DNA from: Ilumatobacter coccineus YM16-304
GTDB taxonomy: Bacteria; Actinomycetota; Acidimicrobiia; Acidimicrobiales; Ilumatobacteraceae
Assembly: GCF_000348785.1 (NCBI RefSeq)
Contig: NC_020520.1
Coordinates: 496,001 to 560,000 of the forward strand
DNA length: 64,000 nt
Direction of reading: 5' to 3'
Of the stretch, positions 54,752 to 60,966 are shown in pieces; the stretch's first letter is position 1; each line of letters opens with the position of its first letter. The notes beneath the pieces were generated by a model, which saw only the letters and a program-made list of their open reading frames with translations, searched no databases and was not told where the DNA came from. The translations under genes were made by a program, and so were the position numbers.

Positions 54752-56011
54752 TCAGCGGCGCACGGTGAAGCTGCGAACCAGCACGTCGGTGCCGTCGGGT
54801 TCGAACCGGAACGTCTCGAAGACGGCTTCGGTCATCTCGCCTTCGCGATTGAGTTCGGTGACACCCGTCGGTCCGTTGTAGTCGATCTGCCGATCGTCGG
54901 CGACCTCTTCGGCACACGCCGCGAACGAACGGCAACGCAAGCCGCCCGACGACACGGGAGCCATGTAGCTGGCGATTTCGGTCGGGGAGTCGGAGCCCGC
55001 CTGCACGGCGGAGAGCGCGATCAGGTTCATGCAGTCGGTCACCTGCGGACCGAACGGTGCGGCGAGCGTGGGATCGGATCCCGACACGGTGATCTGAGGA
55101 GCGACGCCCGACACGCGGGTCCGCAGCGAGGCGGGAAGCGCTTCGATCACCGGTTCGGCTGCCGGGTCACGGATCGGGTCGTTGAGGATGACGTGCGACA
55201 GCCCGCCGAACGACTGCTGCCCGAGCGCGTCGAGAAAGCGGGCGCTGTCGCGAGCCGCACCGAGCACGATGGCCACGGTGGCGTCGCTCTCGACCAGGTC
55301 GATGGCCGCCGAATCGAACGTCTCGGCATTGACCGGGATGGAGATCGTGTCGGACAGGGTGAGCGGACGCCCTTCGAGCGCCTCGGCGACGGCGTTGGCG
55401 TACGGCCGACCGTACGCGTCGTCGACGTGCACGATCGCGATGTTGCGGGCACCGGTCTGCTCGGCCTCTTCGGCGATCGCGATCGCCTGGAGCGAGTCGC
55501 TCGCGATCGTCCGGAAGAAGAGTCGGTCGTCGGGGAAGTCGTCGAGCGAGATGGCCGTTGCCGTGGGCGAGCAGGTGAGGACTTCGGCGGCGACGGCATC
55601 GTCGAGCGCGCCGATGGCGGCGAGCGACGACGACGGGCCGATGATGGCGTCGACGCCGTCGTCGATCAGCGACACCGTGGCCGCCGACGCGGTTGCCGTG
55701 GTGTTGCCCTCGTCGACGATGATGACCTCGACGTCGTGCCCGAGCACGCCTCCTGCGTCGTTGATCGCTTGCTGGGCGGCGGTGACCGCGGAGGTCAACG
55801 ACGTGCCGATCAGCGTGTCGCCCACGGGAAGCAGTGCGCCGATGACGAGCTTTCCGTCGGATTCACGAGGCTCCGGCGGGAGCGTTGTGGTGGTGGCGAC
55901 CGTCGACTCGGGAGCGGTGTCGGGGTCGCCGGAACAGGCCGCGAACGCAACGGTGGCCGCCATCGAGATGGTCACCGCACGACAACGGGTGAATCGCGTA
56001 CGAACAGCCAT
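54752..56011 (-). CDS. Leu/Ile/Val-type solute-binding lipoprotein
   Basis: Periplasmic-binding-type lipoprotein of 419 residues. The lipobox is in TVAFAACSGD (Cys near residue 26). The two-lobe type-1 fold shows LVIGALLPVGDTLIGTSLTS, AINDAGGVLGHDVEVIIVDE, VDAIIGPSSSLAAIGALDD, LTCSPTATAI, FFRTIASDSLQAIAIAEEAE and NIAIVHVDDAYGRPYANAVA, as in branched-chain amino acid binders. No permease or ATPase genes adjoin it, so it may be an orphan receptor. TACCGT ends 7 bases before the ATG, suggesting a leaderless message. Confidence 0.9.
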   Translation of the reverse strand: MAVRTRFTRCRAVTISMAATVAFAACSGDPDTAPESTVATTTTLPPEPRESDGKLVIGALLPVGDTLIGTSLTSAVTAAQQAINDAGGVLGHDVEVIIVDEGNTTATASAATVSLIDDGVDAIIGPSSSLAAIGALDDAVAAEVLTCSPTATAISLDDFPDDRLFFRTIASDSLQAIAIAEEAEQTGARNIAIVHVDDAYGRPYANAVAEALEGRPLTLSDTISIPVNAETFDSAAIDLVESDATVAIVLGAARDSARFLDALGQQSFGGLSHVILNDPIRDPAAEPVIEALPASLRTRVSGVAPQITVSGSDPTLAAPFGPQVTDCMNLIALSAVQAGSDSPTEIASYMAPVSSGGLRCRSFAACAEEVADDRQIDYNGPTGVTELNREGEMTEAVFETFRFEPDGTDVLVRSFTVRR

Positions 56012-56176: not shown

Positions 56177-58651
56177 ATGAACCCCGCACCCATTCTCCCC
56201 AGCGACCGGCAACTGGTCGGCGCCGTCAGAAGTGGGAGCGACGCGGCTTGGAACGAGTTGATGGGGCGCCACGAGACCTCGGTGCGCTCGATGCTGCGAT
56301 CGCGCAAGGAACGCAAGGCGCTGGCCAAGCGGCTCGCCAATCTGCGCGACACGATCGAGAACGAAGACGACACGCACGAGGGCGATCCGGCGATCCGGGC
56401 CTTCCGCCCACGAGCGCTGGCCGCGCTGTCGGGAGGCACGTACGGGCCGACGCCCCGTGCCGACGGCGAGCACGAGCAGGAACGCAGCGACCCCTTCGAC
56501 GTGACCGACGACGAACTCATCGCCACGGCCTTCGCGCTGCTGCCCGAACCGTGGCAGACCGTGCTCTGGCACAGCCATGTCGAACAGCTCACGGCGGCCG
56601 AGATCTCGCCGCTCGTCGGCCGCACGACCAACGACGTCACCGAACTCGTCAACACCGCCGAGCGCGGTCTGGTCGACGCCTTTCTGATCGAGTACATCGG
56701 TGTCGGACCGCTCCCTCCGGAGTGTGAGCGCATCGTCTCGCTGCTCGGCGGGTACGTCCGCGGCACGCTGCCACCGCACGACCAGCGCCTCGTCGAACGG
56801 CACCTCGAGGGTGAGGCGTCCGTCGCCGAGTCGAGCGCGCTGAACGCTGCGCCTGCCGCGCACAACGCCGCGAACGCCGAAGCGTCACCGTTCGCCCCAC
56901 CCGCGGCGCGACGACACACCCCCGACGACAGCCGTCGGCTCGTCGAGGTCATCGCGTCGCTCGGATCGTTCGTCCCGTCTGCCATCGCTCCAGGAGTCAC
57001 CGGTTTGAGTGTCGAAGCACAACGTCAAGCGCTCGGAACCACGAGTCGCTCGTTCGGAAGCGCCGGGCTGCTCGCCGCGCGTTCCGATCGTTTCCGTCGG
57101 TTCGCCACGTTCGGCGCGATCGCCGGCATCGTGATCGCACTGGCCGGCGCCGCCTACCTCGTCCGCCAACCCTTCGACAACGACGGCACCCTCATCACCG
57201 CCGGCGGCGACGACACCCCGGCGTCGCAGGTGCCGGTCACCACCGTTGCCGACGAGCCCGACCCGACGGTCGCCACGACCGAACCCGCTCCCACCACGAC
57301 CGAAGGTCTCGACCTCCGGCCGCAGCCGTCCGGCCCGAGGAGCGCGGTCGAACTCGTCGTCACCGACGGGATCCGCGCCATCGGACTCCGACAGGCTGTT
57401 CCCGATCTCACGCTCGCCGTGTCGTCGCCTGCCCCGATCTACGCCGGCGGTACGGGCACGATCGACGTGGCGGTCACCAACTCCGGCGCGGCGGCAGCCG
57501 ACGCCACTGTCGAACTGCTCCTCCCCAACGGGGTCTCCCTCGAAGCGTTGGCAGCGGGCGATGCGGCGTGCACCGATCCGGAAGGTGACTCGCCGTTCTG
57601 CACCTTCTCGGTCGAGGCGGGCGCCACGCTCGACTTCGCGCTTCGTCTCCGTCTCGAGAGCAGCACCGTCGGTCGCCTCGTCGTCGAAGGTGACCTCGTC
57701 ACCGAACCGCTCGAAGCGGCGATCGTCGCGACGAGCGACCTCGTCCACTCCTCCGTCGGCACCGGTGGCGTCGTCACCATCGGCAACTCGCTGATGACGT
57801 GCGACGACACGGCGGCTGCCGAGCTCGGCATCGACTGCGCCGACGTGCGCGCCGGAGCCGGTGAGTTCGTCAACCGTTGGGACGTGCCGATGGAGTTCAT
57901 CGGCCCCGCACCGCAGTACGGCATCGTCAACTCGTCGAGCGCCGTGCTCGACCTGCCCGACGCATCGTCGATCGTGTCGGCGCACCTGTACTGGTCGGGC
58001 GACCTCGAAGAGCGCCAGCAGTCGATTCCCGACGACGGCAGCAACGAGTTGGTGACCGTGTTGGCCCCGAACGGCGAGGTGACGCAGGTCGTCGCCGACC
58101 GTCTGAGTCTCGGCGACATCGATGCCACGCAGTACCTCGGTTCTGCCGACGTCACCGACATCGTCGCTGCGGGCGGCACGGGCAGCTACCTCATCGGCAA
58201 CGTGCAATCGGTCGAAGTGCAGGGCTCGTACGCCGCCTGGTCGCTGGTGGTCGTGTACGACAACGACGCCGAGCCCCGCCGCCACCGTGTGGTGACCCGT
58301 CCGTTCGAGTGGGTCGCCCCTCAGCCTCGCTTCGAGTACGACGTCGACCTTCCGGTCCCGGTGGTCGCTGGCGCCGACGCGCACCTCTCGATCGTCGCTT
58401 TCGAAGGCGAGCGTGGTTTCCGACCCGAAGCCTTCACCGTCGGCGGCGAACCGCTCGGCGGAGACGCTGTGTTCGACAGCACGATCAGCGGTGAACGAGA
58501 TCCGTCGTACGACAACAATCTCGGTGTCGACATCGACGCCTATGATCTGGTGATCGACACCGCCGACGGCACCCTCCCCATTCGAGCGACTTCCGAGAAG
58601 GACGGCGTGCGCATCGCCGTCCTCGCGCTCTCCGTCGATCTGGCGTCGTGA
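56177..58651 (+). CDS. Sigma-like / one-pass membrane / ectodomain fusion protein
   Basis: Protein of 824 residues. Residues 1-175 resemble an ECF sigma: region 2 start DRQLVGAVRSGSDAAWNELM, a degraded -10-binding part with a charged insert, and region 4 ALLPEPWQTVLWHSHVEQLT then AEISPLVGRTTNDVTELVNT. Residues 185-215 (CERIVSLLGGYVRGTLPPHD then RLVERHLEG) recall a zinc anti-sigma domain without its CxxC. One membrane helix is at about 316-338. A Thr/Pro stalk, a DUF11-like domain (about 415-530) and a beta-rich C-terminal domain (SAHLYWSGDLEER, WSLVVVYDNDAE) follow. Fused ECF groups with membrane extensions are known in actinobacteria. Overlaps glnD by 4 bp. Confidence 0.72.
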   Translation: MNPAPILPSDRQLVGAVRSGSDAAWNELMGRHETSVRSMLRSRKERKALAKRLANLRDTIENEDDTHEGDPAIRAFRPRALAALSGGTYGPTPRADGEHEQERSDPFDVTDDELIATAFALLPEPWQTVLWHSHVEQLTAAEISPLVGRTTNDVTELVNTAERGLVDAFLIEYIGVGPLPPECERIVSLLGGYVRGTLPPHDQRLVERHLEGEASVAESSALNAAPAAHNAANAEASPFAPPAARRHTPDDSRRLVEVIASLGSFVPSAIAPGVTGLSVEAQRQALGTTSRSFGSAGLLAARSDRFRRFATFGAIAGIVIALAGAAYLVRQPFDNDGTLITAGGDDTPASQVPVTTVADEPDPTVATTEPAPTTTEGLDLRPQPSGPRSAVELVVTDGIRAIGLRQAVPDLTLAVSSPAPIYAGGTGTIDVAVTNSGAAAADATVELLLPNGVSLEALAAGDAACTDPEGDSPFCTFSVEAGATLDFALRLRLESSTVGRLVVEGDLVTEPLEAAIVATSDLVHSSVGTGGVVTIGNSLMTCDDTAAAELGIDCADVRAGAGEFVNRWDVPMEFIGPAPQYGIVNSSSAVLDLPDASSIVSAHLYWSGDLEERQQSIPDDGSNELVTVLAPNGEVTQVVADRLSLGDIDATQYLGSADVTDIVAAGGTGSYLIGNVQSVEVQGSYAAWSLVVVYDNDAEPRRHRVVTRPFEWVAPQPRFEYDVDLPVPVVAGADAHLSIVAFEGERGFRPEAFTVGGEPLGGDAVFDSTISGERDPSYDNNLGVDIDAYDLVIDTADGTLPIRATSEKDGVRIAVLALSVDLAS

Positions 58652-60966
58652 CGCCCGACGGCCGCGCCGACCAGCTGGTCGCGGCGGCCGACTCCGGCCG
58701 ACCCAAAGCGCCGAACCAGGGGCTCGACTACTGCCGGGCACTGTCGAGGATCACCGACGAGTGGGTCGTCGAACTGTTCGATGCAGCCATTGCCGCGCAT
58801 CCGACGAAGCACCGCGTCGCACTGCTCGCGGTGGGCGGTTATGGGCGAGGTGAGCTCGCGCCGTACAGCGATCTCGACCTGCTGCTCGTGCACGACTGCA
58901 AGGCCCGCAAGGTGTCGAACGAGATCGAGCCGATCGCGAGCGCGATCTGGTATCCGCTGTGGGACGCCGGGGTCAAGCTCGGTCACGCCGTCCGGCGCGT
59001 CGACGAGCAACTCGACCTGATCGACGGCGACCTCGACTCGGCAACGGCGTTGCTCACGGCACGACCGCTCGCAGGTGACGTCGACATCGCCACCGAAGTG
59101 ATCGAACGCGGCATGAAGTCGTGGGCGTCGAATCGGTCGACCTATCTCGGCGTACTCCGCGGCCGCATGCGCGAACGCCAGGCCAACGCCGCCGACGTGG
59201 CGTACCGGCTCGAACCCGACCTGAAGGCCGGCCACGGCGGGCTGCGCGACGTGCAGACCGTGTGGTGGGCTCGCGCGAGCGGTCTCGAGGTGATCGAGGA
59301 AGACCTCGTCGCGCTCGACGAGTGTTACGACATGTTGCAGCGGGCTCGCGTGGCACTGCATCAGGCCACCGGCAGACCCGGCGAGGTGATGCGACTCGAA
59401 GACCAGGACGAGATCGCCAAGTGCGGTGGGTGGCTCGACGCCGACGCGATGATGGCCGACGTCGCAGCGGCCGGTCGAACGGTCTCGTGGCTGTGCGACG
59501 AGAACTGGAACCGGGCCGTCGAACGTGATCAGGTTCCCGATCGGCAGATCGCGTCGGGCATCGCGCTGCAGAACGGCGAGATCCATCTGACCGAGGGCGC
59601 CGACCCGGTTGCCGACCCCACGCTGGCGCTCAAAGCCGCTGTGGCGGCCGCTCGGACCGAGTGTCGCATCGCGCGGTCGACGCTCGAACGCCTCCGCGAC
59701 GAAGTGGAGCCGTGGCCGTCGATCTGGCCGATCGGCGCACGAAACGAGTTGGTGGCACTCCTCCTCGAAGGGCACCGTGCGATCCGAGTACTCGAGTCAC
59801 TCGACCAGTTCGAGCTGCTGTCGCGGTTCCTGCCCGAGTGGGAACCCGTTCGGTCGAAACCGCAGCGCAACGCCTACCACCGCTTCACGGTCGACCGTCA
59901 CCTGTGGGAAGCCGCCGCCAACGCCGCCGAGTTGGTCGACCGCGTCGGTCGTCCCGATCTGCTCGTCGTCGGCGCGCTGTTCCACGACATCGGCAAGGGC
60001 TACCCGGGCGATCACACCGAGGTCGGCATGGACATGGTGCGTGACATCGCACCGCGGATCGGCTTCAACGGCCACGACACCGATGCGCTCGTGACCATGG
60101 TCGAGCATCACCTGCTGCTCCCCGACGTGGCGATGCGTCGCGATCTCACCGACGAAGCGACCATCGACCTGGTGGCCGGCCTCGTCGGTTCGGTCGAGAA
60201 GCTCGAATTGCTCGACGCGCTCACCGAGGCCGACTCCAAGGCGACCGGTCCGTCGGCGTGGGGGTCGTGGAAGGAAGAGCTCGTCGACGAACTGGTGTCG
60301 AGGACGAAGCACGTGCTCGGCGGCGGTCGAGCGTCGGAGGTCACCTGGCGGTTGTTTCCCGACGAGGCGACGCTCGCCGTCATGGCCAAGGGCGAGGTCG
60401 ACATCTCTCGCGACGGCGATCTCATCACGATCATCAGCCCCGACTCGACGGGTACGTTCAGCCAGGTCGCCGGTGTGCTGTCGCTGCACGGGCTCGACGT
60501 CGTCACCGCTCGTGCCTACTCCGACGAGCAGGGCATGGCGGCCTCACAGTTCCGGGTCGTCGCGCCGAAGGCCGAGATCAAGTGGCGCTCGCTCAAGGCC
60601 GACCTGCGCAAGGGCATGAACTACGAGCTGGCGATCGAAGCGCGGCTCGTCGAGCGGGCCAAGACCTACCGTCGGCGCCGTCGCACACAGGCCGACGCGC
60701 CGGGGCCGCCGAGGGTGAAGTTCATCGAGGGCGGCTCGAGCAATGCGACGGTCATCGAGGTGCAGGCGGTCAGCAAGATCGGGATCCTGCATCGCATCAC
60801 CAAGGCGCTCAACGAGGTGGGGCTCGACATCCGCCACGCCACGGTCCAGACGATCGGCATGGAAGTGGTCGACACGTTCTACGTCCGTACACGCGCCGGT
60901 GGTCTGGTGACGCGCACGTCGCACCGCAAGGAGATCCAGAAGGCGCTCCTGCACGCCGTGTCGTAG
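58648..60966 (+). CDS. glnD: GlnD, protein-PII uridylyltransferase
   Basis: Nitrogen-status enzyme of 772 residues that adds and removes nucleotidyl groups on PII. The nucleotidyltransferase site is GGYGRGELAPYSDLDLLLVH (residue 62 on), the helical GlnD domain contains LEPDLKAGHGGLRDVQTVWW, the HD hydrolase is at about 405-560 (LFHDIGKGYPGDHTEVGMDM), and two ACT domains start near 590 and 700. All catalytic parts look intact. GTG start overlaps the stop of the sigma-like fusion by 4 bp; no glnB, amtB or ffh-rpsP neighbours, which is unlike the usual actinobacterial setting. Confidence 0.95.
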   Translation: MTPDGRADQLVAAADSGRPKAPNQGLDYCRALSRITDEWVVELFDAAIAAHPTKHRVALLAVGGYGRGELAPYSDLDLLLVHDCKARKVSNEIEPIASAIWYPLWDAGVKLGHAVRRVDEQLDLIDGDLDSATALLTARPLAGDVDIATEVIERGMKSWASNRSTYLGVLRGRMRERQANAADVAYRLEPDLKAGHGGLRDVQTVWWARASGLEVIEEDLVALDECYDMLQRARVALHQATGRPGEVMRLEDQDEIAKCGGWLDADAMMADVAAAGRTVSWLCDENWNRAVERDQVPDRQIASGIALQNGEIHLTEGADPVADPTLALKAAVAAARTECRIARSTLERLRDEVEPWPSIWPIGARNELVALLLEGHRAIRVLESLDQFELLSRFLPEWEPVRSKPQRNAYHRFTVDRHLWEAAANAAELVDRVGRPDLLVVGALFHDIGKGYPGDHTEVGMDMVRDIAPRIGFNGHDTDALVTMVEHHLLLPDVAMRRDLTDEATIDLVAGLVGSVEKLELLDALTEADSKATGPSAWGSWKEELVDELVSRTKHVLGGGRASEVTWRLFPDEATLAVMAKGEVDISRDGDLITIISPDSTGTFSQVAGVLSLHGLDVVTARAYSDEQGMAASQFRVVAPKAEIKWRSLKADLRKGMNYELAIEARLVERAKTYRRRRRTQADAPGPPRVKFIEGGSSNATVIEVQAVSKIGILHRITKALNEVGLDIRHATVQTIGMEVVDTFYVRTRAGGLVTRTSHRKEIQKALLHAVS

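Follow-up and report, generated by a model that had tools for sequence, protein, structure and literature searches.

Introduction

The layout closest to the protein described here is that of group ECF52, to which SCO4117 of Streptomyces coelicolor belongs. It comprises an ECF domain, a zf-HC2 domain, a transmembrane (TM) helix, a linker rich in proline and threonine, and an extracytoplasmic binding domain, and release by proteolysis has been proposed (PMC5826349, PMC8999054). Given this published layout, fused sigma/anti-sigma sensing is not new, and an earlier note on the DNA analyzed here, made from its letters alone, was right that fused membrane domains are known in actinobacterial ECF groups. 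PhyR carries an ECF-like sigma2/sigma4 domain, is no sigma factor, and acts by binding an anti-sigma factor (PMC4598750). Among class I anti-sigma domains (ASDI), zinc-free forms are common (~44%), RskA and RseA being examples (PMC7406223). On the extracellular side, DUF11 is a stalk family, and a survey of fibrillar adhesins met both DUF11 and DUF3344 repeatedly, the latter as a cluster whose function is ambiguous (PMC9210967). Our literature search found no paper on Ilumatobacter sigma factors and none on a membrane pseudo-sigma.

Chains joining sigma, zinc-finger, TM and ectodomain parts are widespread in Acidimicrobiales. Outside the class, the frames in our phylum sample that best matched the intact set were 646 to 725 aa long and came from Streptomyces-sized genomes of 8 to 10 Mb, and L126 of that sample combines Sigma70_r2, zf-HC2 and NPCBM. 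Here, we analyzed a window of 64,000 nucleotides from Ilumatobacter coccineus YM16-304, the genome of which is a single contig of 4,830,181 bases. The same genome holds a second single-chain ECF fusion (G000 C1:1025841-1026536 (-), L094), a 659-aa frame with an intact Sigma70_r2, an HIDNCEVC anti-sigma motif (H-x3-C-x2-C-like), a TM helix and a Thr/Pro-rich linker. What is new at the locus in the window is the decay of sigma function within a known architecture.

Results

The locus contains the following features, with coordinates given in the window:

54752..56011 (-): LivK-like substrate-binding lipoprotein, a divergent neighbor and marker of the conserved locus (start codon set by eye)
56177..58651 (+): candidate pseudo-sigma, anti-sigma-like, membrane and ectodomain protein in one chain, 824 aa, ATG start
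58648..58651 (+): overlap GTGA between fusion stop and glnD start, 4 bp
58648..60966 (+): glnD, [protein-PII] nucleotidyltransferase, 772 aa, GTG start at 58648 (NF002895)

As seen, the single 824-residue frame and its 4-bp overlap with glnD are as the earlier note had described them. The downstream gene is a genuine glnD (NF002895, 716.8 bits against the curated NCBIfam cut-off of 631), and the overlap probably couples translation of the two genes. A promoter and terminator scan at the fusion locus yielded nothing useful. Scanning the genome contigs with the family alignment recovered only three relatives, none of them new, from genomes named Ilumatobacter or Ilumatobacteraceae metagenome genomes. 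Relatives of nearly full length occur in G001 (50% identical), G003 (two contig fragments) and G025 (37%). In each, the fusion is open in one frame and adjoins glnD with the same 4-bp overlap; the start is also conserved, as MNPxPxLPSD in G001 and G003. A sequencing frameshift that joined two separate genes was ruled out by the identical single frame in L031, L034 and both contig fragments of G003. Since three more genomes carry the same frame, the fusion is not a frameshift artifact.

The protein itself is laid out as follows:

56177..56476 (+): residues 1-100, sigma-region-2-like helices, with regions 2.2-2.4 unrecognizable as sigma (alignment, family profile, helical model)
56405..56449 (+): residues 77-91, new conserved motif RPRALAALSGGTYGP replacing regions 2.3/2.4 (invariant residues in four genomes)
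56477..56716 (+): residues 101-180, sigma-region-4-like fold, recognition-helix arginines lost (alignment, weak Pfam match, model)
56717..56956 (+): residues 181-260, zf-HC2-like anti-sigma segment, C183 and H209 kept, CxxC lost (Pfam, alignment)
57107..57163 (+): residues 311-329, single transmembrane helix, N-terminus inside (hydropathy 2.1; K/R before, D/E after)
57167..57376 (+): residues 331-400, exported Thr/Pro-rich linker, the fastest evolving of all parts (dN/dS)
57389..57721 (+): residues 405-515, DUF11/CARDB-like Ig-type stalk domain (sub-threshold Pfam match; beta-rich model)
57764..58642 (+): residues 530-822, DUF3344-like domain (sub-threshold Pfam match, 20.5 of 27.2 bits)

One helix with about 480 exported residues had been proposed, and we find ~490 residues outside, strongly acidic and with four cysteines. 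The cytoplasmic part has a single cysteine, C183, and positive charge before the helix. Pfam searches of the window protein showed neither NPCBM (smart00776), which the control L126 matches at 3.3e-27, nor a response-regulator receiver domain, and a sequence search of solved structures found nothing up to an E value of 1. The DUF3344-like domain is homologous to the corresponding part of a same-locus orthologue and to a 5239-aa open frame of the same genome (G000 C1:1409126-1410133 (+), L002/L038). In that frame, which resembles a giant surface protein, the domain is followed by repeated DUF11-like domains.

Next, the N-terminus was compared with sigma models, against which the window protein gave sub-threshold matches only: no Pfam match to Sigma70_r2, 17.7 bits for Sigma70_r4_2 (cut-off 25.7, intact orthologues themselves reaching only 20.6 to 25.1) and 18.3 bits for TIGR02937 against the NCBIfam cut-off of 42.9. 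G001 and G025 likewise had no match to Sigma70_r2 or TIGR02937 above cut-off. The same-locus controls G020 and G172 matched Sigma70_r2 at 1e-13 and 2e-13, and TIGR02937 at 7e-22 and 3e-19, well above cut-off. The sigma homology of the window N-terminus is secured by its relatives and by the fold search described below.

To locate the losses, positions with at least 80% conservation across 22 intact fusions served as the reference for an alignment with the window protein, G001, G003 and G025. These four degenerate members keep 8 to 10 of the 13 reference residues both in regions 1.2-2.1 and at the beginning of region 4 (4.1). The core-binding region 2.2 retains 0 to 2 of 8, regions 2.3-2.4 retain 1 or 2 of 5, and the recognition helix 3 to 5 of 10. 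The recognition-helix arginines of ECF region 4 contact DNA; here, two such -35 arginines have given way to other residues, one to Glu throughout the four members and another to Val or Phe. A family profile of regions 2.2-2.4 scores -9 to 2 bits in the degenerate four against 45 to 88 in ~50 other fusions of like kinship, with no intermediates, a contrast that is meaningful only within the family because low scores are also reached by other ECF groups of the genome, the second fusion among them. The -10-binding part of region 2, which had been suspected of being degraded, is therefore degraded indeed. In its place, the four members, from two genera, have in common a motif at residues 77-91 with the pattern R-x-R-x-x-A-x-L-x-x-G-T-Y-x-P, in which R77, R79, A82, L84, G87, T88, Y89 and P91 are invariant. 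The degenerate clade is monophyletic (support 100/100) on a long stem.

The structure of the N-terminus was modeled from four sequences, which makes the model weak (pLDDT 55.8, pTM 0.44), and helices were predicted where sigma2, sigma4 and the anti-sigma segment are expected. With this model as query, ECF sigmas made up the best ten Foldseek matches and almost the whole top 20; several are in complex with an anti-sigma, and no match fell below an E value of 0.001. VIA placed residues 104-176 on a solved region 4 (Z ~9-10) and residues 4-105 on sigma-E region 2 (Z 8-9, rmsd 4-5), values that are not decisive for helical proteins. The expected sigma-2/sigma-4 pair was thus aligned in both halves, on a weak model, and the overall fold is probably kept despite the residue loss. 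The ectodomain model (pLDDT 51) gave low-TM-score matches to adhesins, integrins and carbohydrate-binding folds, which we set aside because the model is too weak.

Selection on the parts was estimated from the G001-G003 pair (Nei-Gojobori). The dN/dS was 0.11 for the sigma2-like part, 0.14 for the sigma4-like part, 0.16 for the anti-sigma-like segment, 0.19 for the TM helix, 0.45 for the linker and 0.22 for the ectodomain; these values are rough, as dS is high and a single pair of metagenome-assembled genomes was compared. The window copy is itself fast-diverging; its identity to G025 is 50% over the sigma2-like part and 33% over the ectodomain. The order of the dN/dS values, with the sigma-like part most constrained, speaks for continued use of the dead sigma part, repurposed rather than simply decaying. 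Simple pseudogene decay is disfavored by the dN/dS values together with the shared new motif.

In the anti-sigma segment, residues 183-212 match zf-HC2 at 25.1 to 27.8 bits, above the Pfam cut-off of 22.2. As had been noted from the letters, the CxxC is missing: by alignment, the window segment has no Hx3Cx2C motif, both CxxC cysteines are gone, and C183 and H209 are the sole remaining ligands. The CxxC is present in G001, G003 and G025, displaced 20 to 60 residues downstream of the His. Loss of the CxxC alone is no proof of lost anti-sigma function, because zinc-free ASDIs are common and the class I fold survives without zinc.

In a sister genus, this locus carries intact orthologues. Both halves of the window protein align with G172 (ectodomain, 32% and 2e-40; N-terminus, 28% and 1e-20), and G172, G164 and G020 have FdhD, ACT-like and LivK-like genes upstream, a NUDIX gene downstream and an intact sigma. 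Their glnD lies elsewhere in the genome and is 43 to 45% identical to that of the window; in G001, G003 and G025, glnD sits between the fusion and the NUDIX gene. The fusion-glnD order is therefore conserved in all four degenerate members and not in the intact G020, G164 and G172. In five further genomes, the LivK-like gene is followed by glnD with no fusion, and G008 and G067 keep fusion deletion scars directly before glnD:

L072 5382-5692: scar in G008, a TM remnant plus the last 46 codons, 4-bp overlap kept
L075 5188-5331: scar in G067, a short 3′ end only

Two members of genus g11 (G065 and G135) have an intact sigma of 184 to 209 residues that ends right after region 4, freed of the anti-sigma half, and the same sigma-only form is seen less completely in G192:

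L049 1492-2046 (-), L051 1486-2115 (-) and L048: same-locus sigma of genus g11, ending after region 4

Sister species have lost the gene, two of them with scars, so the fusion is dispensable; absence in incomplete metagenome assemblies is weaker evidence than presence. Two types of glnD occur in Ilumatobacteraceae, ~53 to 78% and 41 to 45% identical to that of the window, and genera g11, g12, g18 and g21 mostly have the divergent type, at another locus. The two PII genes of the genome lie ~2 kb apart (G000 C1:1129054-1131229 (-)). Since the locus occurs with the fusion and without glnD, and the reverse, gene position is weak evidence of shared function, and the position before glnD is probably translational coupling of neighbors, not evidence of a nitrogen function.

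Discussion

We propose, with about even confidence, that the window protein could be a membrane-anchored pseudo-sigma that arose from an ECF52-like receptor and works by protein contact. The ancestor was an ECF52-like chain composed of a cytoplasmic ECF sigma, its own anti-sigma, a TM helix and, outside the cell, DUF11 and DUF3344 domains. On the branch of I. coccineus and its three relatives, region 2.2, which binds core RNA polymerase, regions 2.3-2.4, which melt the promoter and read the -10 element, and the two -35 arginines were replaced, so that the sigma module would have ceased being a sigma, and purifying selection holds the remaining sigma-like domain. Homology, orthology at the locus, residue loss and constraint are shown by the results above. 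An outside signal on the ectodomain might then alter or release the sigma-like domain, which, by analogy with PhyR (PMC4598750), may most simply bind an anti-sigma domain, either its own or one belonging to another ECF system, or else bind RNA polymerase in the absence of DNA. This contact step is what we infer. Against the proposal stand the weak structure model, the single genome pair behind the dN/dS values, the loss of the gene in sister species, and the fast divergence and missing CxxC cysteines of the window copy. The earlier note had pictured an outside-to-transcription sensor in a single polypeptide; the one-chain fusion stands, and a working sigma in it is unsupported because the core-binding region 2.2 is also lost.

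The main rival, possible in our view although we rather doubt it, holds that the cytoplasmic part is vestigial. The protein would then act at the surface alone, as an adhesin-like or ligand-binding protein that its helix anchors, with the sigma and anti-sigma parts as a passive plug nearing loss. Consistent with such a plug, many relatives have lost the gene, G008 and G067 retain 3′ scars ahead of glnD, the zinc CxxC is gone in the window, and DUF3344 and DUF11 recur both in the fibrillar adhesin survey (PMC9210967) and in the 5239-aa frame. However, constraint between G001 and G003 is strongest on the sigma-like domain, a newly fixed motif is common to two genera, and the ectodomain changes faster than the sigma2-like part in the comparison with G025.

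A bolder form of the pseudo-sigma proposal, which we consider unlikely, is a transmembrane sigma mimic: a dead, tethered ECF sigma, controlled by its ectodomain, that would capture the anti-sigma of another pathway or occupy RNA polymerase without DNA. If true, it would be a receptor-type counterpart of PhyR, with a working sigma of this locus as its ancestor.

A DNA-binding protein and a working sigma are both less likely. The first, a membrane-tied protein whose sigma-4-like helix-turn-helix sits on DNA without RNA polymerase, had been put forward from the letters and is weakened because arginines conserved in intact relatives are replaced in the recognition helix, by Glu in 4 of 4 members and by Val or Phe at the other position; the region 4 fold retained in the model (Z ~9-10 to solved region 4) speaks for it, and we regard it as improbable. 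It would be surprising, too, if this were a functional tethered sigma with a strongly divergent region 2, freed by proteolysis as proposed for ECF52. Such a protein would explain the retention of the whole ECF52-like architecture in a single frame and the helices still predicted for region 2, but the core-binding and -10 regions are unrecognizable in all four members, without intermediates among ~50 homologues, and the Pfam and NCBIfam sigma models that fail here pass on same-locus orthologues. A nitrogen-status regulator functionally joined to GlnD, as earlier suggested, is very improbable and unsupported, since the 4-bp overlap in 4 of 4 degenerate members of two genera is offset by intact same-locus orthologues without an adjoining glnD, by related glnD genes that mostly have no fusion and more often other genes before them, and by PII genes ~0.57 Mb away.

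The tethered sigma thus has several fates at one locus: intact (G164, G172, G020), freed (G065, G135, G192), dead but conserved (window, G001, G003, G025) and lost, with scars in G008 and G067. The origin of sigma mimics can thereby be tested directly, and a "sigma factor" annotation on a sigma-like fusion should be read with caution, as the protein may not be a sigma.

Among known systems, ECF52 (SCO4117) resembles the window protein in having a sigma-like part, a zf-HC2 segment, a TM helix and a Thr/Pro-rich exported linker in one chain. It differs in that region 2 and the recognition helix of the window protein are degenerate and the CxxC is lost, and in the ectodomain, DUF11/DUF3344 here and NPCBM in ECF52. 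ECF48, ECF53 and IutY (ECF243) also have a sigma fused to a membrane anti-sigma portion, but by their description they are set apart as working sigmas freed by proteolysis (PMC8999054). Segment 181-260 is zf-HC2-like, as in class I anti-sigma domains (PMC7406223), whereas it is fused in cis to its sigma, and in its relatives an insert of 20 to 60 residues splits the His from the CxxC. Like PhyR (PMC4598750), the window protein has an ECF-like sigma2/sigma4 domain; judged by sequence, this domain of the window protein would lack promoter and polymerase contacts. Unlike PhyR, which is soluble and carries a receiver, it has a TM helix and an ectodomain and no receiver.
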